Below are positions 4,151-22,931 of a stretch of 36,029 nucleotides of DNA, piece after piece. The translations under genes were made by a program, and so were the position numbers. Position 1 is the first letter of the stretch; each line of letters opens with the position of its first letter. The notes under the pieces are model-generated. The model was not told the origin of the DNA. It was given only the letters and a program-made list of their open reading frames with translations, and did no database searches. Source of the stretch: Ruminococcus callidus ATCC 27760 (lineage in GTDB: Bacteria > Bacillota > Clostridia > Oscillospirales > Ruminococcaceae); the NCBI RefSeq assembly GCF_000468015.1, contig NZ_KI260480.1, positions 58,890 through 94,918 on the forward strand, written 5' to 3'.

Positions 4151-4404
4151 AGGTGATCGAAGATGTGCAAGACAAGTACGGCAACTACTGCATCATTTTC
4201 AAAAGCACGAATCTCAGGCTGATCTACGACTGGCTGCACACGCACTACAGCGGAAACGGATTCAAGTTTGCAATCGTAATTGACCTGAGTATCGACTATG
4301 ACTACGAAGAGCCGACAGAAACGCTGGTCTACTTCCTGGACGAGATCACAGAAGAAGTGCTGGACTATGCCGGATTCAAGCTTGCAAATGCAGATGAAAC
4401 ATAA
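4147..4404 (+). CDS. Small unknown early protein
   Basis: The 85-residue product starts at a GTG that overlaps the stop of the gene before it (GTGA), with GGAGGTG eight bases upstream. It is acidic, with IDYDYEEPTETLVYFLDEITEEV. No family is recognised. It is the last small gene before the transposase, from which 82 bases separate it. Confidence 0.55.
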   Translation: MKVIEDVQDKYGNYCIIFKSTNLRLIYDWLHTHYSGNGFKFAIVIDLSIDYDYEEPTETLVYFLDEITEEVLDYAGFKLANADET

Positions 4405-4486
4405 AAGCCGAAACAGCGGCAGAGAGCCGCTGTCTGCCGGAACTGGTCTACCGGCACTGATGATGGCAGACCGGAAAGGAGGAGCT

Positions 4487-6490
4487 ATGGACTACTTATC
4501 CGTCAAAGAAGCGGCAGCCCTAAAAGGGTGCAGCGTTCAATCACTTCAAAAACAATGTAAAAACGGTGTTTTACCGGCGGTTATCCAAGAACATCCGCAG
4601 AACCATAAACCCTGTTATCAGATTCCGGTCTCCGCATTTCCGGAGCCGTTGCAGGCTAGGTACTATCAGCAAAAGCGGCAGGAAATGGGCATGATGCCCA
4701 CGCCGATCCCGGCGGAAACGAAACCGCAGAAGCCGAAAAAGAAGGCAAGAGCCGTGCGGCAGATGACCATTGAGGACTGCACCGCACAGCAGCGGCAGGA
4801 GATCCAGATCTGGACAGCAATTCTGCTGGAATGGCACGCCGGACGCATCCAGTACAGCAAGAAAACCGACTATGACAAGCTGTATGTGGGTAAGTGTCAG
4901 TTGGAGCACCCAGACCTACAGGTTTCCACGGGGATTTTGTACCGCAAATGGAACGCCTATCAGGAGCATGATCTTGCCGGTATGCTGGGGATACGGGGCG
5001 GCTGGAACAAGCACAGCAGCGGCATTCCCCAAGTCGTGTGGGAGGCGTTTCTGTGGTTCTGGCTGGACGAGAATCAGCCAACCGTCCGAGCCAGCTATCG
5101 CAATGTGATCAGCTGGACAGAGGATTTCCACCCGGAGCTGCTGGAACAGATCCCGTCTGAACGGAGCTTTCGGCGGCGAATCGACAACGATGTGGCAGAG
5201 GCAACGAAAATACTGATGCGTGAGGGCGAAAAGGCGTTTTCTGACCGCTGTATGCCGTACATTATCCGAATGTATGACCAGCTGGAACCGAATGACGTAT
5301 GGATCGCCGACAACCACACACTGGATATTCAGTCTCTGGACGAACACGGCACCATTCACCGCCTGTATCTGACAGCATTTCTGGATGCCAAGTCCGGCGT
5401 GATCACCGGCTGGAACATTACGGAGTCTCCGGATTCCCAGTCCACGATCCTGGCACTGCGGCACGGCATTCTGCGGTTCGGCATCCCGAAAGCGGTGTAT
5501 TTTGACAACGGTCGGGAATTTCTCACCCACGATGTGGGCGGAAAAGGACACCGCACCCGAAAATCTGACCAGGATGTCACAGAGCCGCCTACCATTTTAC
5601 AGCGGCTGGGCATTGAAATGCACAACGCCATTGTACGAAATGCGAAAGCAAAGCCCATTGAACGAACATTTTACACGGTCAAGAGCCAGTTTTCCAAAGC
5701 GTTCAGCGGTTTCTGCGGCGGCACGATCCTGGAACGTCCGGAAAGCCTGAAACGGCGAATCAAGAACAAAGCCATACCGCAGGACTACGAGGTCAGAAGC
5801 CATCTGGAAACGTGGATCGACGGCGAGTACAACTTGCAGGAGTACGGCGGTTCTGAGGCAAAGTACCGAGACATGAGCCGTCTGGATGTCTGGAACGAGG
5901 AGATCCGGTCGATCCGCAAGGCAGCGGATGCAGAGCTGAATCTGATGCTGATGCGATCCACCAGAACCCAGAAGATCAAGCGAAACGGCGTGTACATCAC
6001 TTTTGCCGGTGAAAAGATCTGGTACATGAATCCGGAGGAAACCATTCTGCATCTGGGCGAGGAGGTCTATGTGCGGTATGATCCGGCAGACCTGAAAACC
6101 GTCCGGCTGTACAACACCCAAGACCAGTATCTGTTTACCTGGGAGCTGGCGGATATCCTGCTGATGGACTATCTGACCTCCAATCCGGAGGAGATCGCCA
6201 ACGCAGAAATGATGATCCGCCGCACCAAGAAGTTTGTACGGGATCAGGTCAAGGGCATCACCGCCGATCTGACCAACACACAGCGGATCGATTCTCTGGA
6301 TGCCACGATCCGGAGAGCCGCCAAGGCAAAGGAAGAACGATTCCAGATCCGGTATCCCAAGACCATCGAACCGGTACGAGCCGGAGAAACGAAAGAAGAA
6401 CACCGCATGGTTTCCGGCAGCGAAATGATCCCGGTCACCATCGACCTGAAAAAAATGCGGCAGAACGCCCAAAGACGAAAGGAAGAATAA
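4487..6490 (+). CDS. MuA-type DDE transposase
   Basis: The 667-residue protein catalyses strand transfer of the phage ends, for integration and for replicative transposition. An N-terminal MerR-like/wHTH segment (DYLSVKEAAALKGCSVQSLQKQCKNG) is followed by DNA-binding helices and an RNase H-fold catalytic core. The catalytic residues visible are D275 (IADNH), D340 (YFDNGREF) and E392 (KPIERTF). A Mu-type beta-barrel domain follows, with a charged tail that in Mu contacts the B protein. The length equals that of MuA (663). I chose the ATG at 4487 for its AAAGGAGG site. The B ATPase follows after three bases. Its substrates are probably the ends at 1369 and 31439. Confidence 0.95.
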   Translation: MDYLSVKEAAALKGCSVQSLQKQCKNGVLPAVIQEHPQNHKPCYQIPVSAFPEPLQARYYQQKRQEMGMMPTPIPAETKPQKPKKKARAVRQMTIEDCTAQQRQEIQIWTAILLEWHAGRIQYSKKTDYDKLYVGKCQLEHPDLQVSTGILYRKWNAYQEHDLAGMLGIRGGWNKHSSGIPQVVWEAFLWFWLDENQPTVRASYRNVISWTEDFHPELLEQIPSERSFRRRIDNDVAEATKILMREGEKAFSDRCMPYIIRMYDQLEPNDVWIADNHTLDIQSLDEHGTIHRLYLTAFLDAKSGVITGWNITESPDSQSTILALRHGILRFGIPKAVYFDNGREFLTHDVGGKGHRTRKSDQDVTEPPTILQRLGIEMHNAIVRNAKAKPIERTFYTVKSQFSKAFSGFCGGTILERPESLKRRIKNKAIPQDYEVRSHLETWIDGEYNLQEYGGSEAKYRDMSRLDVWNEEIRSIRKAADAELNLMLMRSTRTQKIKRNGVYITFAGEKIWYMNPEETILHLGEEVYVRYDPADLKTVRLYNTQDQYLFTWELADILLMDYLTSNPEEIANAEMMIRRTKKFVRDQVKGITADLTNTQRIDSLDATIRRAAKAKEERFQIRYPKTIEPVRAGETKEEHRMVSGSEMIPVTIDLKKMRQNAQRRKEE

Positions 6491-6493
6491 CAC

Positions 6494-7414
6494 ATGGAAT
6501 ACACAGAGCATCAACAGAGCCTGCTCCGCAAGCTGGAGCAGCTGCAAAAGGACGAAGGACTGAGCCTGTCTGCATTGTCTGCCCGTCTGGGCATCTCCAA
6601 GGGAGCACTCTCCCAGCTGTTTTCCGGCAGCTATCAGGCAAATCCGCAGAAGATGTTTGCGAAACTGGAAAGCTATTTCGGGGTAAAAGATCAGACCAGA
6701 CAGACCTATCAGGAATCCGGCTATGCAGATACCAGCATCTCCACGGAGATCTATGACATCATCGGTGTCTGCCAGATCAAGGGCGGTCTTGCCATTGCCG
6801 CCGGAGATGCCGGCATCGGAAAGACCAAGGCAGCACAGCACTTTGTGGCAGAGCACCCGAACAACAGCGTACTGATCACGCTGAATCCCTGTCTGACCAG
6901 CATCAAGTCCCTGCTGCGGCTGATCGCCGACCGCATCGGTGCTCCCATGGAACGCTCCAGAGATGCCCTGTGGTATTCCATCCGGCAAAAGTTGAGTGAC
7001 GGCACGGTGCTGATCTTTGATGAATCCCAGCACCTGCCGCTGAAAACCATTGAGGTGCTGCGAAGCTTCTCCGATGATTTTGCCGACCACGGGCAGACGC
7101 TGGGCATCTGTTTCATCGGAAATCTGGAAACGGTGACACGCATCGGCAGCAAGAAAGCAGAGTTCGCACAGATCGCCAACCGCACCAAGCAGAAGAAGCT
7201 GTACACCCGTTCCAAGATCCAGCGTGAGGACATTGCCAAGCTGTTCCCCATGCTGAACGGACGGCAAAAGGAAATTGATTTTCTGTTCCGCATCGCCCAG
7301 ACACCGCAGGCTATCCGTGGCGTGGTCAACCTGTTCTCCAATGCCTATGACAACGAGGACTACAGCTATGAGGGACTGGTGGCAATGGCAAAGTACATGG
7401 ATATGGAGGTCTGA
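6494..7414 (+). CDS. MuB-type AAA+ ATPase, target selection
   Basis: The 306-residue protein pairs an N-terminal HTH domain (residues about 18-60, LSALSARLGISKGALSQLF) with an AAA+ ATPase domain. The Walker A is GDAGIGKT at 104-111 and the Walker B is LIFDES with D176 and E177. MuB binds DNA with ATP, brings target DNA to the transposase and gives target immunity. The same two-domain layout and size (MuB 312) and its place right after the transposase support this. Target choice by such proteins favours AT-rich DNA, in line with the ATTTT target here. Confidence 0.94.
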   Translation: MEYTEHQQSLLRKLEQLQKDEGLSLSALSARLGISKGALSQLFSGSYQANPQKMFAKLESYFGVKDQTRQTYQESGYADTSISTEIYDIIGVCQIKGGLAIAAGDAGIGKTKAAQHFVAEHPNNSVLITLNPCLTSIKSLLRLIADRIGAPMERSRDALWYSIRQKLSDGTVLIFDESQHLPLKTIEVLRSFSDDFADHGQTLGICFIGNLETVTRIGSKKAEFAQIANRTKQKKLYTRSKIQREDIAKLFPMLNGRQKEIDFLFRIAQTPQAIRGVVNLFSNAYDNEDYSYEGLVAMAKYMDMEV

Positions 7415-9602: not shown

Positions 9603-10076
9603 ATGGCAAAAGGACAAACCCAGACACTGTACAGCCTTGCTGCTGTGCTGGGGCTGGTAGAATCGGGAAACAAGGAAGACCCGTTCCACATGATCGTCTA
9701 CCGTATCAGCGGCAAGACCTCTGTCCGGGAACTCACCCCACCGGAGGCGGCAGCGGTAGAGGCGGAACTGCGGCGGCAGCTCCGGGAGCAGCGTCCCAAA
9801 AAGAAAGCGGCATCCCCGGAGTATCCGGGAAAAATGACAGCCGGACAAAAGGCGTATGCCTGGCGGCTGCTGTACGATCTGGCAAAGCTCTCACCCTCTG
9901 CGGTGCCAGTGGGCGAACGCATGGCAGGCATCGTCCGAAAGGTATTGCAGGAAGACCCCTGCCCCGGTCATCCGCTGAACTGGGTCAAACGGGAGGACGG
10001 GGCGAAACTGATCGAGGCACTGAAACGGTATCTGCGAAACACAAAGCGAAAGGCGGCGAAACATGACTCTGGATAA
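9603..10076 (+). CDS. gemA: GemA-like regulator (DUF1018)
   Basis: The 157-residue protein matches the Mu gp16/GemA family in its C-terminal half: MTAGQKAYAWRLLYDL, then GIVRKVL, then LNWVKREDGAKLIEALKRYL. Mu GemA affects host gene expression and gyrase-related functions. The ATG at 9603 has GAGGA ten bases before it; a GTG at 9594 overlapping the previous stop is an alternative. It overlaps the Mor gene by 14 bases, as expected for Mu order. Confidence 0.85.
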   Translation: MAKGQTQTLYSLAAVLGLVESGNKEDPFHMIVYRISGKTSVRELTPPEAAAVEAELRRQLREQRPKKKAASPEYPGKMTAGQKAYAWRLLYDLAKLSPSAVPVGERMAGIVRKVLQEDPCPGHPLNWVKREDGAKLIEALKRYLRNTKRKAAKHDSG

Positions 10077-10359
10077 ACTGACCATGGAACAGCTGCACGG
10101 CAGTCAGCTGGAAATTGCGGAGGTCATCGGCATCGAAGCGTACCGGAAGCTGGTCGCCAGCTACGGCGGCAGCAGCATCTATATCAGCAAGGCGGATTCC
10201 GTGATGAACGGTCTGAGAGATGCGGAGATCTTCCGGCGGTTTGACGGTTCCAATTATCTGGAACTGGCACACGCCTTCAATCTGGCGGAGAACACCATCC
10301 GGGACATCATCTACCGCCAGAGCACCGACCGGGAAGCACACCAGATGACGTTCTTCTGA
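10063..10359 (+). CDS. mor: Mor-family transcription activator
   Basis: The 98-residue protein carries the Mor/C family signature. It has a dimerisation part (VIGIEAYRKLVASYGGSSIYIS) and a C-terminal HTH (NYLELAHAFNLAENTIRDII). In Mu, Mor is the last early gene and activates the middle promoter with the sigma-70 RNA polymerase. The gene position here is the same. The probable target is the region just downstream (10361-10452), which has phased direct repeats and a TG-extended -10-like sequence. No separate C gene is visible in the window. Confidence 0.9.
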   Translation: MTLDKLTMEQLHGSQLEIAEVIGIEAYRKLVASYGGSSIYISKADSVMNGLRDAEIFRRFDGSNYLELAHAFNLAENTIRDIIYRQSTDREAHQMTFF

Positions 10360-10360
10360 A

Positions 10361-10452
10361 CCTGAAAATTCATTGAAATTCCTGAAAAATCTGCCTTATT
10401 TGCAGCACCGTTCTTTTCTGTGCTATCATTACAGTAGAAGTAATGATAGCAC
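10361..10452 (+). promoter_or_regulatory. Candidate Mor-activated middle promoter region with strong hairpin
   Basis: CCTGAAAA occurs at 10361 and again at 10381, exactly 20 bases (about two helical turns) apart. A TG-extended TATCAT lies at 10424-10429 without a good -35, as in activator-dependent promoters. The same bases are in a perfect 13-bp inverted repeat, GTGCTATCATTAC (10420-10432) and its complement (10440-10452), followed by TTTTCTTTT. The hairpin could instead be the terminator of the early transcript. Both roles together are possible. Confidence 0.6.
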
Positions 10453-10476: not shown

Positions 10477-10788
10477 GTGACACAGGAACTGATCCTGTTT
10501 ATCATCACCACGGTGATCACCGTGATCCTTGGGATCATCGGCTATTTTCTGAAACGCACCATGGATCGCAATGACAAGAACGAAATGGCAGTGCAGGAGC
10601 TGCGTGACAATCTGCTGACGCTGTCGGACAAGTACGCCACCAAGGCAGAGATCCGGGAGATCAAGGCATCTATGGAAAAATTGTCGGAGAACATCGACTA
10701 CATCAAGGAACACACCACCAAGAACGAGGATTTTATTCGCACCATGGCAAGGCTGGAAAGCAAGATCGACAGCTATTGCAGCAAGTAA
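10477..10788 (+). CDS. Membrane-anchored coiled-coil protein, DUF2730-like
   Basis: The 103-residue protein has one N-terminal transmembrane helix (ILFIITTVITVILGIIGYFL) followed by a long charged coiled coil. Mu gp25/gp26 (DUF2730) have this layout and the same place after Mor. The start is a GTG at 10477 behind GGGGAGGG. It is the first gene of the presumed middle operon. Its role in Mu is unclear, although lysis or morphogenesis has been suggested for such proteins. Confidence 0.7.
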   Translation: MTQELILFIITTVITVILGIIGYFLKRTMDRNDKNEMAVQELRDNLLTLSDKYATKAEIREIKASMEKLSENIDYIKEHTTKNEDFIRTMARLESKIDSYCSK

Positions 10789-10800
10789 GGAGGAACGGCA

Positions 10801-11130
10801 TTGGAGCAGGCAGAAATGATAGAGCGAATCCGGCAGAAGGCATTTTTCAAGAATAACGGCATGGTGCTGAAAGCCGTGAATCTGCTGCGTGACAAGTTTG
10901 TTGCATTGACGGACATCCGCTATGCACTGGAACCCAGTATGACCGAGGCGGAATTCCGGGACAGCATCAACTATCTGACGGAATCCGGATATATCCGGCT
11001 GCGGCACATGGATTCCAAGGCGTGTACGACACTGGCAGATACGGCAATGGAGCAGCTGGAAGCCAAGGTATCGGCGGACGGTATCAAGATCATTGCCTGT
11101 GTCCGCAAGGACGAATGTATTGACGTGTGA
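10801..11130 (+). CDS. Unknown middle-operon protein, possible winged helix
   Basis: The 109-residue protein starts with TTG at 10801, nine bases after AAGGAGG. Its middle (TEAEFRDSINYLTESGYIRLRHM) reads like the recognition helix and wing of a winged-helix domain. It corresponds in place to Mu gp26. No stronger assignment can be made. Confidence 0.6.
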   Translation: MEQAEMIERIRQKAFFKNNGMVLKAVNLLRDKFVALTDIRYALEPSMTEAEFRDSINYLTESGYIRLRHMDSKACTTLADTAMEQLEAKVSADGIKIIACVRKDECIDV

Positions 11131-11138
11131 GGTGCTGC

Positions 11139-11684
11139 ATGGGACGCAGAAAGCATTCTAAGATCGACAATCTGGAACCGGCAGTCAAGGAGACCGTAGA
11201 CGAGATGATCAAGACCGGTGCCTATTACCGGGAGATCGTGGACTATATCCAGTCCCACGGCGTGAGCATCTCTTTGGCAGCGGTGGGAAAATATGCGAAA
11301 AATCTCATGAGTACGCTGGACGCACTGCGGCTCAGTCAGGAGAACTTCCGGGCGATCATGGAAGAAACCGACCGCTATCCGGATCTGGACATGACAGACG
11401 GCATTCTCCGCCTGCTCTGCAATCAGATGCTGGATGCCATCAACAAGCTGCCGGAGGAACGGCTGTCGGAGATCGACTTTGACACCCTGTCCAAAAATGC
11501 CGTGGCACTCACCCGTGCAGTGGCGTACAAGAAGAACGTGGACACCAAGACACGGGATCTGCTGGAAAACGGTGCAGAGCAGTTCAAGGATCTGATCTAT
11601 GAAGCCATGGCGGCAGAACGACCGGATCTCTACAAGGAAGTCAAGAAATTTATCAAATCCAAAGCCAAGGAGGGAAAGGCATGA
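11139..11684 (+). CDS. Mu gp27-like protein (DUF3486)
   Basis: The 181-residue protein starts MGRRKHSKIDNLEPAVKETV and has an HTH-like helical segment (YREIVDYIQSHGVSISLAAVGKYAK) near residues 30-55. Mu gp27 is placed just before the terminase large subunit and is thought to act as the small terminase or its helper. I chose the ATG at 11139, six bases after GAGG. It overlaps the NusG-like gene by four bases. Confidence 0.82.
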   Translation: MGRRKHSKIDNLEPAVKETVDEMIKTGAYYREIVDYIQSHGVSISLAAVGKYAKNLMSTLDALRLSQENFRAIMEETDRYPDLDMTDGILRLLCNQMLDAINKLPEERLSEIDFDTLSKNAVALTRAVAYKKNVDTKTRDLLENGAEQFKDLIYEAMAAERPDLYKEVKKFIKSKAKEGKA

Positions 11685-12172
11685 GTATGTATGTGGTACA
11701 GGTAAAGCCCGGCACGGATCTGCAAGTGGCTGTGCTGCTGCGGAAAAACGGGCATCTGGTACGCTGTCCGCAGCGAACCATGGACATCCGGAAAAACGGC
11801 AGTTGGAACAGCATCACCGAACCTGTCTTTCCCGGCTATCTGTTTCTGGAGGAAGAAATCGACCGGCAGAAGTATGACAGCGTTGTCCGGGCAGACGGCG
11901 TGATCGGATTTCTGAAAGTGTCCGGCTGTACGCTGGGCAAGCTGCAACCCCACGAGGAAGCATACATCCGGTGGCTCTGGAACGGCGGCAAGCCCATTGC
12001 CCCGTCCCGGATCTATACCACATTGCAGGGGGACAAGATGGTCTTGTCCGGCGTGCTCCGGGAATACTGGAACAATGTGGTGCGGCTGGATCTCCGGCAG
12101 CGGCGTGCCCGTGTGCGGCTCTCCATCTGCGGACATGACTACACGGTCACACTGCCGGTAATCGGTATTTAA
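11681..12172 (+). CDS. NusG paralogue (LoaP/RfaH-type), putative late antiterminator
   Basis: The 163-residue protein has an N-terminal NGN domain (residues about 3-100; YVVQVKPGTDLQVAVLL, then the typical EPVFPGYLFLE, then VIGFLKV). A KOW domain follows at about 115-163 (GDKMVLSG, then RARVRLSICGHDYTVTLPV). NusG paralogues such as RfaH and LoaP bind RNA polymerase at the NGN domain and suppress termination in chosen operons. Mu has no such gene. Here it is the last gene before a 306-base leader that contains a strong terminator, and the late genes lie beyond. It is best explained as the phage's own late antiterminator. The domain call is strong; the role is inferred. Confidence 0.88.
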   Translation: MSMYVVQVKPGTDLQVAVLLRKNGHLVRCPQRTMDIRKNGSWNSITEPVFPGYLFLEEEIDRQKYDSVVRADGVIGFLKVSGCTLGKLQPHEEAYIRWLWNGGKPIAPSRIYTTLQGDKMVLSGVLREYWNNVVRLDLRQRRARVRLSICGHDYTVTLPVIGI

Positions 12173-12478
12173 GAGCGTGTGTGAAACAAATCAGTATGCC
12201 TGTCGCTGCTGTGGTTGATTCGTCCCACAGGGTGCGGCATATGGTATAAAGGCAGTACTTCTTGCAGCTCTTTGTGCGGTATTGCCTGAACCCCGAACGG
12301 AACTTTTCCAAAAAGATTCCGAATGGCGAAGCATACCCTGTTTAAGAACGTTCAGAGGGCGTTTAGAATCGTTTGAAGATTTTTCTGCGAAAAACAACAC
12401 CCAAAAAGAATACACGCAATATACGGGCGTACAGCGTCCGTATTTTTTTGACCATTTTTCTGAAAGGAGTGACTGCAA
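12173..12478 (+). promoter_or_regulatory. Late-operon leader with two hairpins and a terminator
   Basis: This 306-base stretch has no gene. It begins at the stop of the NusG-like gene with AAGAGCGTGTG. Hairpin 1 (12196-12240) has outer arms ATGCC/GGCAT and inner arms CTGTGG/CCACAG. Hairpin 2 (12250-12287) has arms AGGCAGTAC/GTATTGCCT with one G-U pair. An intrinsic terminator closes the leader at 12421-12449. This layout matches leaders recognised by LoaP-type factors. Its start and the GGTATTGCCT block resemble the dispersed repeats, so hairpin 2 may come from such a repeat. Confidence 0.65.
12421..12449 (+). terminator. Leader terminator upstream of the late genes
   Basis: The stem ATACGGGCGT/GCGTCCGTAT has ten pairs (two G-U) around an ACA loop and is followed by seven T residues. 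It lies 30 bases before the first late gene start, in the same direction. Without antitermination it should stop most transcripts from the middle operon. Confidence 0.85.
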
Positions 12479-12820
12479 ATGAACAGCCGAAAGAAAAAGA
12501 GCATCCACCAGCTGGCAGACGGTATCCTGCAATTTGAGGACAAGCGGAAATCCATTCCGCAAGCGGACTTTACCGATTTGCAGACGTTCCTCTCTGCCTA
12601 CCTGAATACCCCGGAGCCGAAGAAGCGGAAAAAGCTGGCGGAGGAATTCCGGAAACGGCACATGGAGCTGTACGAATTCCTGCAAAGCAATCCGGAGCTA
12701 ATCCGGGCAGAGACCAAGATCACCGCCACCCTACAGGCGGCGGCATCCGGAGCAGCCGAAGAAGAGGATAACGGGCAGATCACCAATCTGTTTGAGAAAT
12801 TGCAGGAGGGACTGGCATGA
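12479..12820 (+). CDS. Unknown protein before the terminase, possible small terminase
   Basis: The 113-residue protein is helical, basic at the N-terminus (SRKKKSIHQLADG) and has a KKRKKLAEEF segment. It ends in a more acidic part. Its ATG follows AAAGGAG, and it overlaps the large terminase gene by four bases. Position suggests a packaging role beside gp27, but no family is recognised. Confidence 0.6.
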   Translation: MNSRKKKSIHQLADGILQFEDKRKSIPQADFTDLQTFLSAYLNTPEPKKRKKLAEEFRKRHMELYEFLQSNPELIRAETKITATLQAAASGAAEEEDNGQITNLFEKLQEGLA

Positions 12821-14112
12821 TCTATCAGACTTTTTCCCCCAAGCAGATACAAGCCATGCTCTGGTGGGCAATGCCGAAATTCCGGCAGTATGATGCTATC
12901 ATCTGTGACGGCTCTGTCCGTTCCGGAAAGACCATGGCAATGAGCATCGGCTATCTGCTATGGAGTATGCGGAGCTTTGACCATGAGACATTTGCCTTTT
13001 GCGGCAAGACCATCGACAGCCTGAAACGCAATGTGGTCACGCCGATCCAGAAGTGGATGGCAGGCGTGATGCAGCCGAAGATCAACCTGTCCAAGAACTA
13101 TATGGACGTGGAATGGCAGGGGCATCACAACCGCTATTATTTTTTCGGCGGCAAGGACGAGAGCAGCTATGCTCTCATTCAGGGTATCACCCTTGCCGGT
13201 GTCCTGCTGGACGAAGTGGCACTGATGCCCCGTTCTTTTGTGGATCAGGCAACGGCGAGATGCTCTGTCACCGGTTCTAAGATCTGGATGAACTGCAACC
13301 CGGACGGCAGCGAGGAACACTGGCTGTACAAGGAATGGATCGACAGCGTACACGGGAAAGCCGGCGAAAAGAACCGGCTGCACCTGCACTTCACCATGGA
13401 GGACAACCGTGCTCTCTCTGTATCTGTCCGGAAACGGTACGAGCGGATGTATTCCGGTGTGTTCTATGACCGGTATGTACTGGGCAAGTGGGTTATGGCG
13501 GACGGGCTGGTGTATCCGCAGTTCCAGAAGCTGCGGCACGTCATTCCGGACACTGTGCCGGATGTGCATTCCGGCGAGTTCTATCTCAGCTGTGACTACG
13601 GCACACTGAACCCGACCTCTGTCGGCTTATGGCACCTGTCCGGAGATGGCTATGCCACCCGAATCCGGGAGTACTATTATGATGCCCGAAAAGAGGGACA
13701 TTCCCGAACGGACGAGGAACACTACGCTGCACTGGAACAGCTTGCCGGAGATATTGCCCCCTATGTGCGGTATGTGATCGTAGACCCGTCTGCCGCCAGC
13801 TTTATTGAATGTATCCGGCGGCACGGGGTATTTCGGGTGCGGAAAGCCAACAACAGCGTTCTGGACGGCATCCGTGACACGTCCACGCTGCTGCAAGCCG
13901 GACGCATCCACATCTGTGAAGGCTGTACGGATATTATCCGGGAATTCGGGCTGTACTGCTGGGACAATCAAGCCAAAGGAAAAGACGCTGTGGTCAAGAC
14001 CAACGACCACGCCATGGACGATATGCGGTATTTCGTCCGGACGGCGATGCAGCGGACGCTGCGGGAATACCGGATGCCGCCGGCAGATGACAACGAGGAG
14101 GTGATGCCATGA
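12817..14112 (+). CDS. terL: Terminase large subunit, PBSX family
   Basis: The 431-residue motor protein packages DNA into proheads. The ATPase domain has Walker A GSVRSGKT at residues 32-39 and Walker B LLDEVALM. The C-terminal RNase H-fold nuclease shows its acidic residues in LSCDYGT, VIVDPSA and NDHAMDDMRYF. The best family is the PBSX/SPP1-type Terminase_3 group, not the Mu gp28 type. For a transposing phage it must cut host DNA next to the integrated copy, as Mu does by headful packaging. It is coupled to neighbours by ATGA overlaps. Confidence 0.94.
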   Translation: MIYQTFSPKQIQAMLWWAMPKFRQYDAIICDGSVRSGKTMAMSIGYLLWSMRSFDHETFAFCGKTIDSLKRNVVTPIQKWMAGVMQPKINLSKNYMDVEWQGHHNRYYFFGGKDESSYALIQGITLAGVLLDEVALMPRSFVDQATARCSVTGSKIWMNCNPDGSEEHWLYKEWIDSVHGKAGEKNRLHLHFTMEDNRALSVSVRKRYERMYSGVFYDRYVLGKWVMADGLVYPQFQKLRHVIPDTVPDVHSGEFYLSCDYGTLNPTSVGLWHLSGDGYATRIREYYYDARKEGHSRTDEEHYAALEQLAGDIAPYVRYVIVDPSAASFIECIRRHGVFRVRKANNSVLDGIRDTSTLLQAGRIHICEGCTDIIREFGLYCWDNQAKGKDAVVKTNDHAMDDMRYFVRTAMQRTLREYRMPPADDNEEVMP

Positions 14113-15452
14113 TCGATGCAACCCAGATCGCCGCAGCCATGCAGGTGCCCTGCCTGCTCAGCGGCGACATGATACAGCAGATGCAGCTGTGGGAAGAACT
14201 ATATCTGAACCGTGCCGGCTGGATACGGAACCGTATCCGTTCCTGTCACATTCCGGCGAATATCGCACAGGAGCTGAAACGGCTGACACTGACGGAATTT
14301 TCCGCCACGGTACACGATGCGGCAGAACTGGAACAGGCGGTCAGCCGTGTGCTGCCGAAGCTGCGGCGGAAAATGGACTTCGGGCTTGCCATTGGCGGCT
14401 TGCTGCTGAAACCCTATTTCACGGCACAGGGTGTTTCGGTGGACATTGTGCCGCAGAACGCCTATCTCCCGGTGAACTACACGGACGATTCCTGTGATGC
14501 GGTGGTGTGTCCGGAGGAAATTTCCATCGGCAGGGACTATTTCACCCGTCTGGAACTGCACGTCTATTCCCGGTTGCGGCAGACACACACCATTCAGAAC
14601 CGCTGCTTCCGGTCTGCCAGTCCGGGAACACTGGGCACAGAGTGCAGTCTGGATGCAGTGCCGCAGTGGGCGGATGTATTGCCGGAAAAGGTGTATGAAA
14701 ACGTACAGCGTCCGCTGTTTGCCATTTTTCAGACACCGGATTCCAACAACATCGACCCCACTTCACCGCTGGGCGTTTCGGTCTTTGCCGATGCCGTGGA
14801 CTTTATCCGGGATGCGGATGAGCACTGGGAACGAATCCTGTGGGAACTGGAATCGTCCGAACGTGCCATTGATGCCACCGAGGATCTGTTCCGGTACAAG
14901 GACGGCAAGCCGGTACTGCCCAAGGGCAGAGAGCGGATGTTCCGCAGCTATGAGAAAACGGACGGGCAGTCCTTTATCAATACCTTTTCTCCGGAAGTCC
15001 GGGACACTGCCTATTTCCATGCGTTCAATCAGATCCTGCGGCGGATCGAAAATGCGGTGGGGCTTTCCTACGGCACACTTTCCGAAGTATCCGATGTGGA
15101 GAAAACCGCAGAGGAAGTGCGAAGTTCCAAGCAGCGGAGCTTTTCCCGTGTAAAAGACATTCAAGAAAATCTGCGGAACGCACTGGAGCAGATGCTCTAT
15201 GGGATGCAGTTCTATCAGGACTACTACCGCAGTCAGAGCAGCCCACCGGTCAAGGCAACCTTTAACTTCGGGGATGGTGTGCTGGAAGATCCAGACGTGG
15301 AGTACCAGCGGCGTGTGCAGATGGTACGGGACGGACTTCTGAAACCGTCTCTGTTTCTGGCGTGGTATTTTGACTGCTCTGAGGAAAAGGCAGCACAGAT
15401 GATGCCGGAGCGGCAGGATGACGGCGGTTTATTTTCCGGTGGTGAGATCTGA
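14109..15452 (+). CDS. Portal protein, SPP1 gp6-like
   Basis: The 447-residue protein lies between the terminase and the minor capsid gene and shares one base with the latter. It has the alpha/beta make-up of SPP1-type portals, with the long helix region near residues 330-390 (YGTLSEVSDVEKTAEEVRSS and on). It forms the dodecameric DNA channel at the head vertex. The identification uses place, length and overall pattern. Confidence 0.85.
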   Translation: MIDATQIAAAMQVPCLLSGDMIQQMQLWEELYLNRAGWIRNRIRSCHIPANIAQELKRLTLTEFSATVHDAAELEQAVSRVLPKLRRKMDFGLAIGGLLLKPYFTAQGVSVDIVPQNAYLPVNYTDDSCDAVVCPEEISIGRDYFTRLELHVYSRLRQTHTIQNRCFRSASPGTLGTECSLDAVPQWADVLPEKVYENVQRPLFAIFQTPDSNNIDPTSPLGVSVFADAVDFIRDADEHWERILWELESSERAIDATEDLFRYKDGKPVLPKGRERMFRSYEKTDGQSFINTFSPEVRDTAYFHAFNQILRRIENAVGLSYGTLSEVSDVEKTAEEVRSSKQRSFSRVKDIQENLRNALEQMLYGMQFYQDYYRSQSSPPVKATFNFGDGVLEDPDVEYQRRVQMVRDGLLKPSLFLAWYFDCSEEKAAQMMPERQDDGGLFSGGEI

Positions 15453-17284
15453 TGCAGAATTATGAGCCGGATGTGACTCAGCTGCTGGGGCTATATCAGC
15501 AGCTGGAAGATGATATTGTGGCAGACATGGTGCGGCGGATGCTGCGTATGGGGTTTGTGTCAGAAACCACCGCCTATCAGGCAGAGGTGCTGCAAACTGC
15601 CGGTATCCTGTATGATGACATTTTGCAGATGATCGCAGACCGGACAGATGCCAGTGTGGCACAGGTTCGGGCGATGTTTGAGGATGCCGGTGTGCGGACG
15701 GTGGAGATCGACAACGACACCCACGAAGCAGCCGGCGAAGCCCCGGCGGACATTCGGCAGGACGCAGGCATGAAGCAGGTGCTGGAAGCCGGATACCGGA
15801 AAACCCTTGGCACGATGCGGAATTTGGTCAGCACCACGGCGAACACCACGCAGACTGCTTTCCTGCAAGCCTGTGACCGGGCGTATATGCAGGTGTCCTC
15901 CGGAGCGCTCAGTTATCAGGATGCCATACGCATGGCGGTGCGAAATCTGGCGGACGGCGGAGCATATGTGACCTATCCCACTGGACACCGTGACCGCATT
16001 GATGTTGCGGTGCGGCGGTGTGTGCTGACGGGCGTGGGACAGACTGCGGCGGCAGTGGCAAAAAAACGTGCAGAGGATTCGGGCTGTCAGTACATGGAAC
16101 TGACGGCACACGGCGGAGCAAGACCGGAGCACGCCAGATGGCAGGGGCAGCTTGTCCAGATACAGGGCAAACGCACCAGGAAGATCATTGACGGGCTGAA
16201 AGTCTTTACCCTGCAAGAAATCGGCTATGGGGACGGCAGAGGCTTCAAGGGCTGGAACTGCCGGCACAACTGGCATCCGTACTATCCGGGACTGTCCACG
16301 CCGAACTACACATCGGAGGAGATCGCCAGGCTGGACGAAAAGAGCATTTCTTACAACGGCGAGAAGTACACAGAGTATGAGATCAGCCAGATGCAGCGAA
16401 AGGGCGAGCGGAAGGTCAGAACACTAAAGCGGCGAGCGGCAGCGTTGGAGGAAGCAGCGAATAACACAGATGATCCGGTGTTAAAACAGGGTTTGAACAA
16501 TGATTTTTCGGCGGTTTCCGTGCGTTTGAAAGATGCGGAAAAAACGCTGAAAGACTTCTGTCAGCAGACCGGACAGCGGAGAGATCCGTTCCGGGAGCAG
16601 GTCAATGGGTTCGGACGGTCTACGGCTCAGAGGGCGGTGCAGGCTGCAAAACGAGTTCAGAATGGCAAAAAAGAATTGACTTCTGGCGGTGACGGTGGTA
16701 TAATAAAAGAACAGGAACGAATGCAAAGTTCTTCGGATTATGCTGTTCCAAAAGATTTGGTAAAAAGCAGAGAGTTCAGGAGCAAGTTTGATTCCATGGA
16801 TTCAGATAAAAAGTTACAGCGGCAGTATTATCAGGTTGCTAAGAAAATGTTGAACCATCGTTCAGGCACAAATGGTGAAGACTTGTATTTCTATAATACC
16901 AGAACAAAGAAATGGTATTCCTCAACAACAGGAACGCAAGCCGGAACGCCGGACTATACCGAAGAAATCCGCAGAGCGTTGCAAGAATCTGAAAAAGATG
17001 AAATCGTTTCGTTCCATAACCACCCACTTGGTATGCCGCCCAGTGCTGGTGATTTGAATGCCGCATTGAAAAACGGGTATCAAAAGGGCTATACAATTGG
17101 ACATGACGGTACGGTATTTGAATATACAGCACCAATATTTATTATCGATGAAGCGGTGTATAATAAGAGAATCAGTCTACATGCCGAAAAAGGAGATAGC
17201 GAATTCCAAGCACAGGTAAACGCACTCCTAGATTTGCAAGAATTTTATAAATTCAAATTTAAGGAGATGAAATCAGATGGATGA
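15452..17284 (+). CDS. Minor capsid protein fused to JAMM-like C-terminal toxin domain
   Basis: Residues 1-360 of this 610-residue protein match the phage minor capsid 2/MuF class (key block GHRDRIDVAVRRC, then HGGARPEHARWQGQ), which enters the prohead near the portal. From about residue 420 the DNA turns AT-rich and a different domain begins. It has the motif SFHNHPLGMPPSAGDL with H522, H524, S531 and D534, close to the JAMM metalloprotease signature (HxH, S, D), though one residue shorter than usual. MuF proteins with exchangeable C-terminal toxins are a known family of phage polymorphic toxins. A small ORF overlaps the 3' end as a possible immunity gene. What the domain cleaves is unknown. 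Confidence 0.85.
   Translation: MQNYEPDVTQLLGLYQQLEDDIVADMVRRMLRMGFVSETTAYQAEVLQTAGILYDDILQMIADRTDASVAQVRAMFEDAGVRTVEIDNDTHEAAGEAPADIRQDAGMKQVLEAGYRKTLGTMRNLVSTTANTTQTAFLQACDRAYMQVSSGALSYQDAIRMAVRNLADGGAYVTYPTGHRDRIDVAVRRCVLTGVGQTAAAVAKKRAEDSGCQYMELTAHGGARPEHARWQGQLVQIQGKRTRKIIDGLKVFTLQEIGYGDGRGFKGWNCRHNWHPYYPGLSTPNYTSEEIARLDEKSISYNGEKYTEYEISQMQRKGERKVRTLKRRAAALEEAANNTDDPVLKQGLNNDFSAVSVRLKDAEKTLKDFCQQTGQRRDPFREQVNGFGRSTAQRAVQAAKRVQNGKKELTSGGDGGIIKEQERMQSSSDYAVPKDLVKSREFRSKFDSMDSDKKLQRQYYQVAKKMLNHRSGTNGEDLYFYNTRTKKWYSSTTGTQAGTPDYTEEIRRALQESEKDEIVSFHNHPLGMPPSAGDLNAALKNGYQKGYTIGHDGTVFEYTAPIFIIDEAVYNKRISLHAEKGDSEFQAQVNALLDLQEFYKFKFKEMKSDG
16676..16704 (+). promoter_or_regulatory. Internal promoter at the capsid-toxin domain junction
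   Basis: TTGACT (16676-16681) and TATAAT (16699-16704) are 17 bases apart inside the coding sequence. An in-frame ATG follows at 16721 with AGGA close before it. The promoter sits where base composition changes and just ahead of the toxin domain. It could express the small downstream ORF, and perhaps the isolated domain (residue 424 on), in the lysogen. It is independent of late control. Activity is inferred from sequence only. Confidence 0.65.
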
Positions 17285-17448: not shown

Positions 17449-17468
17449 CAAAACCAAATATAACAAAA

Positions 17469-17493
17469 AGCATCTCACCTGAGGTGCTTTTTT
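17469..17493 (+). terminator. Cassette terminator 1
   Basis: AGCATCTC/GAGGTGCT with loop ACCT is followed by five T residues. The stem and the following TTTTTTCTATGCCAGAAAGGAG block are repeated at 17795-17835. It would stop transcripts from the internal promoter after the small acidic gene. Confidence 0.8.
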
Positions 17494-17514
17494 CTATGCC
17501 AGAAAGGAGAATCT

Positions 17515-17766
17515 ATGAAAGAAATGACATTCGGCGGTGCATTGGAAGCACTGAAAGCCGGAAAGAAAGTTGCCAGAACCGGTTGGAACGGCAAAGGAAT
17601 GTATTTGTACCTTGCTGACGGCAAATTACTGACGCAGGAAATCGGTGACGGAAGTTATCCGTTTACGGACAGCATTGTCATGAAAACCGCAGATAACCGA
17701 TATTGCATTGGCTGGCTGGCTAGTCAGACCGATATGCTGGCGGAAGATTGGTGCATTGTCAAATAG
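17515..17766 (+). CDS. tad2: Tad2-like protein (DUF2829), putative Thoeris inhibitor
   Basis: The 83-residue protein has the DUF2829 pattern: TFGGALEALKAGKKVARTGWNGKGMYLYL at the start (given in part), then DGSYPFTDSIVMKTADN, and a final MLAEDWCIV. This family includes Tad2, a phage protein that sequesters the cyclic ADP-ribose signal of the Thoeris defence system. The length agrees with Tad2 (about 90). It sits alone between two near-identical terminators with its own AAAGGAG site, as a cargo (moron) gene. Anti-Thoeris activity is inferred from the family; not all members need share it. Confidence 0.8.
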   Translation: MKEMTFGGALEALKAGKKVARTGWNGKGMYLYLADGKLLTQEIGDGSYPFTDSIVMKTADNRYCIGWLASQTDMLAEDWCIVK

Positions 17767-17794
17767 ACTACCAGCGTTTTTGCATAGCGAAAGC

Positions 17795-17819
17795 AGCATC
17801 TCGTAAGAGGTGCTTTTTT
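17795..17819 (+). terminator. Cassette terminator 2
   Basis: The same AGCATCTC/GAGGTGCT stem, loop GTAA, is followed by T residues. The 24 bases from GAGGTGC through AAAGGAG are identical to those after terminator 1. Confidence 0.8.
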
Positions 17820-17840
17820 CTATGCCAGAAAGGAGCAGTT

Positions 17841-18002
17841 ATGCTTACAATGATTGTTTTGTTAGTCCTCCTCTATGCCATGAACGGAAGTTTTGCCGTT
17901 CCCACGGTGTGCTTTGTGCTTTCGTGGATCGGCATTGGATTCGGAGCGTTTGACCTTATTTTGAAACTGTTTCTGAAAGCTTATGAGAAGCATCTCGACT
18001 GA
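17841..18002 (+). CDS. Small membrane protein, cargo gene
   Basis: The 53-residue protein begins at an ATG after AAAGGAG. It has two hydrophobic segments (LTMIVLLVLLYAM and VPTVCFVLSWIGIGFGAFDLI) and a short charged end. Its stop codon lies in the loop of the third terminator. It is the third cargo unit between minor capsid and scaffold genes. Function is unknown; superinfection exclusion or membrane toxicity are possible. Confidence 0.6.
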   Translation: MLTMIVLLVLLYAMNGSFAVPTVCFVLSWIGIGFGAFDLILKLFLKAYEKHLD

Positions 18003-18013
18003 GGTGCTTTTTT
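17989..18013 (+). terminator. Cassette terminator 3
   Basis: The stem AGCATCTC/GAGGTGCT with loop GACT and a T run is the third near-copy. The stop codon of the membrane protein gene is at 18000-18002, inside the hairpin. Confidence 0.8.
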
Positions 18014-18048
18014 CATACATTTTATTTTTTTGAAAAGGAGTTATCCCT

Positions 18049-22864: not shown

Positions 22865-22878
22865 AAGCGTATAAATAG

Positions 22879-22913
22879 CGGCACTTTTACGGTATGTGAG
22901 AGTGCCGTTTTTT
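22879..22913 (+). terminator. Intrinsic terminator before the tape measure gene
   Basis: CGGCACT/AGTGCCG around a 15-base loop is followed by six T residues. It lies within the late operon, in the 67-base gap between Gp15 and tape measure genes. The read-through needed to reach the tail genes fits with antitermination. Confidence 0.75.
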
Positions 22914-22931
22914 CGGAGGTGGTGAAATAAT

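Follow-up and report, generated by a model that had tools for sequence, protein, structure and literature searches.

The late operon of Mu-like phages of Clostridia-type bacteria is most probably switched on by processive antitermination of the LoaP type, in which a phage-encoded NusG paralogue would act through a structured leader RNA that lies between its own gene and the first late gene. The window, meaning the whole 36,029-nt stretch of DNA that was analyzed (G000:C196:58890-94918), is a Mu-type prophage: Pfam recognizes Mu-transpos_C, HTH_Tnp_Mu_2 and Gp27 in it, with a Mu-type transposase at 4298-6490 and an AAA protein at the MuB position (6494-7414). A Mor/C-family transcription activator gene is found at 10063-10359 on the + strand, and a gene for a Mu Gp27-like protein (11127-11684, +; PF11985, E 1.3e-16) is the last one 5' of the NusG paralogue. 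The latter, a protein of 163 aa encoded at 11681-12172 (+), is followed by a gap of 306 nt, the leader (12173-12478), after which the first late gene begins (12479-12820, +; 113 aa). This gene has no family match in Pfam or PHROGs, and from its position it is probably the terminase small subunit; from 12817 onward, PHROGs identify the terminase large subunit (12817-14112, +; phrog_2, E 3.5e-54), the portal protein (14109-15452, +; phrog_533), and the head and tape-measure genes.

The LoaP-like protein

The original prediction placed an NGN-KOW protein directly before the late leader, and both the ORF and its family hold up. The product (P0001) matches Pfam NusG (E 9.3e-09), PHROG 6386 'transcription antiterminator' (E 8.3e-43) and NCBIfam LoaP (NF033641, E 1.6e-24). 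By sequence, LoaP appears to be the nearest curated family, though the score of 86.9 bits is below the curated cut-off of 125; the protein is therefore named LoaP-like and is not filed as LoaP. A structure prediction against LoaP, RfaH and NusG had been proposed as a check, and the AlphaFold2 model made from 22 relatives (mean pLDDT 95.1) has the NGN-KOW fold. Its C-terminal part is all strand and an RfaH-type helical C-terminal domain is absent, as in the LoaP fold. The closest solved structure, at TM 0.86, is 8f5g, titled as a NusG-RNA complex, which is probably the LoaP-RNA structure mentioned in PMC12691694.

All 22 aligned phage proteins match NCBIfam LoaP (best E 1.1e-39), and all 22 also match NusG, RfaH and UpxY, at best more weakly than LoaP. 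According to PMC12691694, R41 of LoaP is needed for RNA recognition in the B. velezensis system, and E40 is the second RNA contact. When equivalents are assigned via 8f5g, a mapping of our own, the position equated with R41 is an arginine in 20 of the 22 phage proteins, in 26/26 LoaP-like proteins of the class and in 8 of 11 canonical LoaP proteins (lysine in the other 3), and in 0/29 NusG-type proteins. The position equated with E40 is isoleucine in 15 of the 22 phage proteins and glutamate in 2. PHROG 6386 was rejected as a marker for counting, as it matches ordinary NusG too (279/291 genomes and 10/14 controls); a search of the viral contigs with the single protein gave no match.

The leader RNA and its structure

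The leader has a fold z of -2.4, with 2 of 100 shuffles as good, and the two hairpins and the terminator that had been claimed for its 306 nt all fold. What the claim overlooked is that the leader RNA is a relative of the Rfam family RAGATH-28 (RF03052): the match, at 12209-12332 (+), scores 42.2 bits (E 4.4e-06), where the gathering score is 45.3. The threshold is thus not reached by the copy in the window; relatives in G017 and G282 pass it, with 52.4 and 49.5 bits. Both the P1 hairpin and the AUGGCGAAGC end of RAGATH-28 are present and aligned in the window RNA. P1 (12209-12230, +) is contained in the first claimed hairpin, which folds at 12201-12239 (z -2.5), and is composed of a CUGUGG/CCACAG stem, then UU, G-A and U-C around UNCG at 12219-12222; in the minimum-energy fold of the window the entire 10-nt P1 loop is open. 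Further 3', a P2 hairpin (12298-12321, +; z -1.7 alone) lies just 5' of a conserved UGGCGAAGC module (12324-12332, +), in which 8 of 9 columns are invariant over 40 RNAs, and UGGCGNAGC is nearly invariant among the leader RNAs. Hairpin 1 and this module are what is conserved in the leader, which had also been missed. The weight originally put on hairpin 2 (12250-12287, +; z -2.9) was misplaced, as no other phage of the set has this insert: between TTGAT.CGTC and GGCG.AGC the window RNA spans 118, versus 74-83 in the other 40 distinct RNAs. The term RAGATH-28 was not found in the literature searched.

Structural tests were performed on 41 RNAs, selected by hand from 57 distinct candidates after removal of 12 without the consensus and 4 near-duplicates (L065, L145, L244 and L312); 25 came from the RNA or DNA pattern and 15 via the protein, to which the window was added. 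L038/L323 failed the stem filter and stands outside the 41 RNAs, though it has a LoaP-like gene, and L079, being of insufficient length, does not enter the tests for terminators and arrays, for which n is 40. As the sequences are related and partly redundant, the counts do not represent independent events. Over the 41 RNAs, 80.4% of P1 cells are paired, and 7 of 9 pairs are changed on both sides, all in the outer stem, a number reached by 6 of 500 shuffles. Covariation in P1 is 0.403 versus 0.149 in shuffles (0/500 as high), and with sliding it does not exceed 0.160. Pair types, of which there are 23, show no excess over shuffles (23.3). A lack of conserved leader hairpins in relatives, which was to count against the original prediction, is not seen: the stem of hairpin 1 is kept with covariation. 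Hairpin 2 is found only in this phage. The two inner P1 pairs beside the loop hardly vary, so that covariation is no test of the UNCG loop. The loop reads UNCG in 40 of the 41 RNAs, where N is U, G or A (L331 has CUCG), and with its covarying stem P1 is by sequence a UNCG-type leader hairpin as in LoaP systems; a folded tetraloop is the putative form of this loop. RNAalifold on alignment A5 returned three P1 pairs only.

Support for P2 is seen on average and not in every sequence, with a mean stem score of 13.3 versus 8.7 in shuffles over the 41 RNAs and a median per-sequence fraction of 0.12. A pseudoknot between the P1 loop and GGCGAA is a candidate alternative to the UNCG loop. There is almost no variation in its four core pairs, where 1 cell of 164 goes from G-C to G-U, and the next, variable pair is kept in 30 of 41 RNAs, without covariation. 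One RNA, at 2052-2173 of L149, carries a UGCG loop and a GGCGCA module, a double change that would restore a loop-module pair and is the sole case among the 41. A P3 helix (GGCAUA with UAUGCC) found no support as a general feature, scoring 11.1 versus 10.2 for swapped partners and standing in the best tenth in 5 of 41 RNAs.

Coupling of the gene and the RNA

A search for the gene-plus-leader pair in related phages had been proposed as a check, and the pairing is seen from both directions. RAGATH-28 is rare: among 291 class genomes 3 have a match, 2 of them over the cut-off, and among 14 controls none does. A DNA pattern made of the two conserved RAGATH-28 ends yielded 30 viral and 81 genome stretches, some of which are copies of one phage present in both collections; 110 of these 111 were examined (L037-L146, with L147 left out). 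The 30 folded loci among them were picked by hairpin, consensus and spacing before any protein search, and a LoaP-like gene adjoins 30/30 of these versus 0/80 unfolded loci, adjoining being defined as a gene end from 400 nt before to 150 nt after the loop start. Among the 41 distinct RNAs, 15 of which were found via the protein, all 41 have a LoaP-like gene upstream on the same strand. In 33 of these the gene end and P1 are at most 60 nt apart or overlap, and in 8 the gene ends 81-261 nt away; at several loci there is overlap between the RNA and the gene's 3' end. The arrangement in the 33 would leave little promoter room between gene and RNA in most phages.

Starting from the protein, two viral searches with protein alignments gave 6 and 69 loci. 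In 43 of these 75 the RNA model R1 has a match immediately after the gene, at a distance of up to about 235 nt. R1 was built partly from those loci or copies of them; 10 of the 43 are neither in the training set nor near-copies of it. The RNA was present in 6/6 loci of the first search and, in the second, in 37 of 39 with a protein E of at most 4e-14 and 0/30 weaker ones; the two misses are L332, which ends inside the gene, and L339. Five of the 43 matches are weak (L334-L338, 14.5-23.3 bits). A further weak R1 match was seen on the minus strand of L316. The 29 loci brought in by PHROG 6386, in our own reading mostly ordinary nusG, have no R1 match at E 0.01. In the only INPHARED record that contains a relative, the RNA likewise follows the gene immediately (44.5 bits). 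Over the genomes, 89 of 391 match R1 at E 0.001, its E-values being rough, and scores above 50 bits are confined to G282, G017 and G385; the match in the window is split into two, of 23.9 and 21.0 bits. Other genome matches reach at most 26.6 bits, and those in G376 and G087 adjoin LoaP-like genes; most of the rest were taken as noise without a check of each.

The phages carrying the RNA are largely of the Mu kind. The Mu transposase domain PF09299 is present in 29 of 35 RNA-bearing records, comprising 12/12 whole genomes and 17/23 virus contigs, and the 6 records without it are contigs 4-24 kb in length. For G282, G017 and G385, the domain is encoded on the contig and strand of the RNA, 5-9 kb upstream of it. 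Terminase or portal genes were found downstream in 9/9 phage-type loci tested (PHROGs, 10 proteins).

Terminators, activator gene and promoter-like sites

The strong terminator claimed before the first late gene is present at 12421-12449 (+), with 10 pairs, a T-run and a z of -4.7, leaving a gap of 29 nt to that gene. Further terminators in the late operon, placed near 17469, 17795, 17989 and 22879, all fold as well: three near-identical copies are at 17465-17494 (z -5.4), 17795-17820 (z -4.1) and 17989-18015 (z -4.2), and another between late genes is at 22877-22914 (z -5.0), each on the + strand. The three copies, of the form GCATCTC..GAGGTGC with a T-run, border small genes that sit between those for the minor head protein and the scaffold (17465-18015), and two of the three are then followed by the same RBS-like stretch; the region looks like a cassette of acquired genes. 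Across the phages, a local terminator within 200 nt after the RNA is found in 15 of 40 leaders versus 0.7 expected, and 25 have none by this local test. A long-range alternative terminator, with its 5' arm beside P2, can be drawn in 20 of 40 leaders versus 10.0 expected from shuffles of 2-base blocks. In 13 of these 20 one geometry recurs, the 5' arm lying 23-34 nt before RUGGCG and the 3' arm 31-39 nt after the module, a sharing that is suggestive only.

Late genes of phage Mu are controlled by Mor and C, and Mu carries two Mor/C genes. The statement that no C gene is seen in this phage does not hold, since PF08765 matches at 10084-10338 (G000:C196:68973-69227; E 5.4e-17), within the activator gene given above. 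The same family is found in 20/20 records tested, the window and 19 others, with one copy over the cut-off in each, although the records may be fragments; 2 of 14 control genomes have it, one of them over the cut-off. With the gene present in all of these records, transcription through the LoaP-like gene is probably initiated by a Mor-type activator, and the place of C, the second activator of Mu, may be taken by the LoaP-like protein and its RNA, if the order of events is as supposed. The Mor/C gene is closely followed by a hairpin of 13 pairs (GTGCTATCATTAC..GTAATGATAGCAC) at 10420-10452, which has a T-rich tail, and then by a promoter-like site at 10477; the hairpin is proposed to be either a terminator or an activator site.

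A promoter-like site is also seen inside the leader (12342-12369), and a stronger one at 16676-16704 (+) in the 3' part of the minor head gene, a sigma-70 type site reading TTGACT-17-TATAAT with TG (11/12); from these the late genes might have promoters of their own. Overlapping the former is an array of GTTTAAA-like repeats at 10-11 bp spacing (12340-12378, +). GTTYAR occurs 3' of the RNA at 1.48 per 160 nt versus 0.18 in mononucleotide shuffles, and at least 2 copies are present in 19 of 40 leaders, where the spacings are only 10, 11, 20, 21 or 31 bp; this helical phasing points to a candidate DNA-binding array. A second GTTTAAA-like cluster is present at 1572-1640, near the left end of the prophage.

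Cellular counterparts

A protein of the LoaP-like kind is found at E 1e-28 in 38 of 391 class genomes. A strict motif, defined as a UNCG hairpin plus a GGCGAAGC-like module, occurs in 7 of 29 class-genome loci, of which L148, L149 and L154 are phage-type and L158, L160, L163 and L165 are taken as cellular. It also occurs in 2 of 11 weaker viral loci (L335 and L338), and is absent from 11/11 canonical LoaP loci, 30/30 weak viral loci and 29/29 PHROG 6386 loci. R1 scores on the cellular loci are low, at 9.7-18.4 bits, with 26.3 in L170; among canonical LoaP loci there is a match of 12.2 bits in L377, on the downstream side of the gene, and one of 25.8 bits in L380, on the upstream side. The hairpin of the cellular loci has the form U-GU-UUCG-GC versus UU-GA-UNCG-UC in the phages, and the former is also seen in viral L335 and L338. 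Rfam on 12 such loci gave only sub-threshold RAGATH-28 matches, in L330 and L170, and little was gained by scanning the LoaP loci only for UNCG hairpins with a UU bulge.

Downstream proteins were scanned with Pfam in nine loci, one of which, L159, was chosen only for its module-like string. Six have capsule- or wall-polysaccharide-type matches downstream (L158, L159, L163, L165, L170 and L377) and L160 has a winged-helix protein; viral L336 and L338, with weak RNA matches, have no Pfam match downstream. In L380 (2006-2077, - strand) the hairpin and UGGCGAAGC module stand before, not after, the canonical LoaP gene, and in L386 (around 1501-1570) they precede an ORF whose start is LoaP-like by eye; both are possibly cases of autoregulation.

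Proposed mechanism and alternatives

In kind and in order, the parts of the phage locus match those of the B. velezensis LoaP system. In that system, according to PMC12691694, neither in vivo nor in vitro can the UNCG hairpin be dispensed with; LoaP needs no other factor to counteract termination assisted by NusA, and it promotes read-through of several terminators in one operon. In the phage, transcription would start upstream, probably at a promoter under the single Mor/C-type activator, and the polymerase would run through the LoaP-like gene into the leader, where the nascent RNA is predicted to fold P1 with its UNCG loop. The LoaP-like protein would bind P1 as cellular LoaP binds its own UNCG hairpin, join the elongating RNA polymerase and counter NusA-assisted intrinsic termination, such that the polymerase may pass the leader terminator and those inside the late operon. 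As the gene lies upstream of its own target, late expression is proposed to wait for enough protein. The UGGCGAAGC module and P2 probably aid loading, as a pause or a second contact. A more detailed model is offered tentatively, at well below the confidence placed in LoaP-type control itself: RAGATH-28 might be the version found in phages of an RNA that loads LoaP and has two parts, a UNCG recruitment hairpin and a separate P2-UGGCGAAGC module for pausing or factor binding. In one phage group the module would also contain the 5' arm of the terminator and so act as a switch; the system would replace the second activator of Mu in transposable phages of Clostridia, and hosts and phages would share this kind of RNA for capsule and late operons.

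Alternatively, the late genes could use an activator-dependent promoter of the Mor/C type, perhaps involving the GTTTAAA array, in or after the leader, with the LoaP-like protein aiding elongation or having some other role. The Mor/C-family gene in every record tested, the helically phased array that immediately follows the RNA in roughly half of the leaders, and the promoter-like sites at 12342 and 16676 are all consistent with this; however, the terminator at 12421-12449 comes after both the array and the weak promoter-like site, so that transcripts starting at these would still meet it, and the 16676 site comes only after the terminase and portal genes. A promoter of this kind also leaves unexplained why the RNA is beside or overlaps the LoaP-like gene in 33 of 41 cases, and the records, which may be fragments, have one Mor/C gene over the cut-off each against the two of Mu. 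On balance such a promoter is an unlikely explanation, and LoaP-type antitermination is preferred.

That RAGATH-28 is instead a trans-acting small RNA or a self-cleaving ribozyme, with the LoaP-like gene an incidental neighbor, would agree with its Rfam type ('Gene; sRNA') and with RAGATH motifs having reportedly come from a search near ribozyme-associated genes. This is very improbable given the coupling in all of the folded and none of the other pattern loci, the overlap of the RNA with the gene 3' end in several loci and a P1 loop that reads UNCG, like the hairpin bound by LoaP. A packaging signal or packaging RNA is less probable again: the element does lie directly upstream of terminase genes in the phages tested, but similar elements follow cellular loaP-like genes before capsule-type genes, and the stem covariation argues for an RNA rather than a DNA site.

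Relation to known systems and significance

LoaP-type antitermination of the late operon can be compared with several known systems. With LoaP at the dfn and mln operons of B. velezensis, as described in PMC12691694, the phage locus shares a NusG paralogue, a UNCG-type leader hairpin, an intrinsic terminator after it and more inside the operon and, by our own mapping, the RNA-recognition arginine; the likeness of the hairpins is one of loop type. The phage differs in that its target is the late operon, its RNA is longer and has the conserved P2-UGGCGAAGC module (absent from the passages of PMC12691694 consulted), the E40 contact is mostly not kept and the window protein scores below the LoaP cut-off. 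Rfam RAGATH-28 shares the hairpin sequence GGUUGAUUCGUCC and the end AUGGCGAAGC with the window copy, whose middle part is extended by an additional hairpin and whose score is just under the gathering threshold; the Rfam table rows consulted name no partner protein. RfaH, acting with ops DNA, is likewise a NusG paralogue acting on a long operon, but recruitment in the phage is apparently by RNA, and the C-terminal domain of the phage model is strand-rich; RfaH chains match this model at a query TM of about 0.4-0.5.

Phage Mu has in common with the window phage the Mu-type transposase, Gp27 and a Mor/C-family gene, whereas the window phage has one Mor/C gene over the cut-off to the two of Mu and places a LoaP-like gene and leader RNA before its late genes. 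The N and Q proteins of phage lambda are also phage-encoded antiterminators acting on a downstream operon; here, unlike in lambda, the factor is a NusG paralogue that probably recognizes a UNCG hairpin. The suggestion of a new control mode can be kept in part: a NusG paralogue directly precedes a terminator-bearing late leader, yet a phage 'transcription antiterminator' family already exists in PHROGs. Among the matches listed in the literature search, no title connects transposable phages or RAGATH RNAs to LoaP or a NusG paralogue. With LoaP-type control of late genes, the orphan RNA family RAGATH-28 would gain a likely partner and function, and antitermination by NusG paralogues would be extended from antibiotic and capsule operons to phage late-gene control, suggesting how Mu-like phages of Clostridia may time the expression of their late genes.
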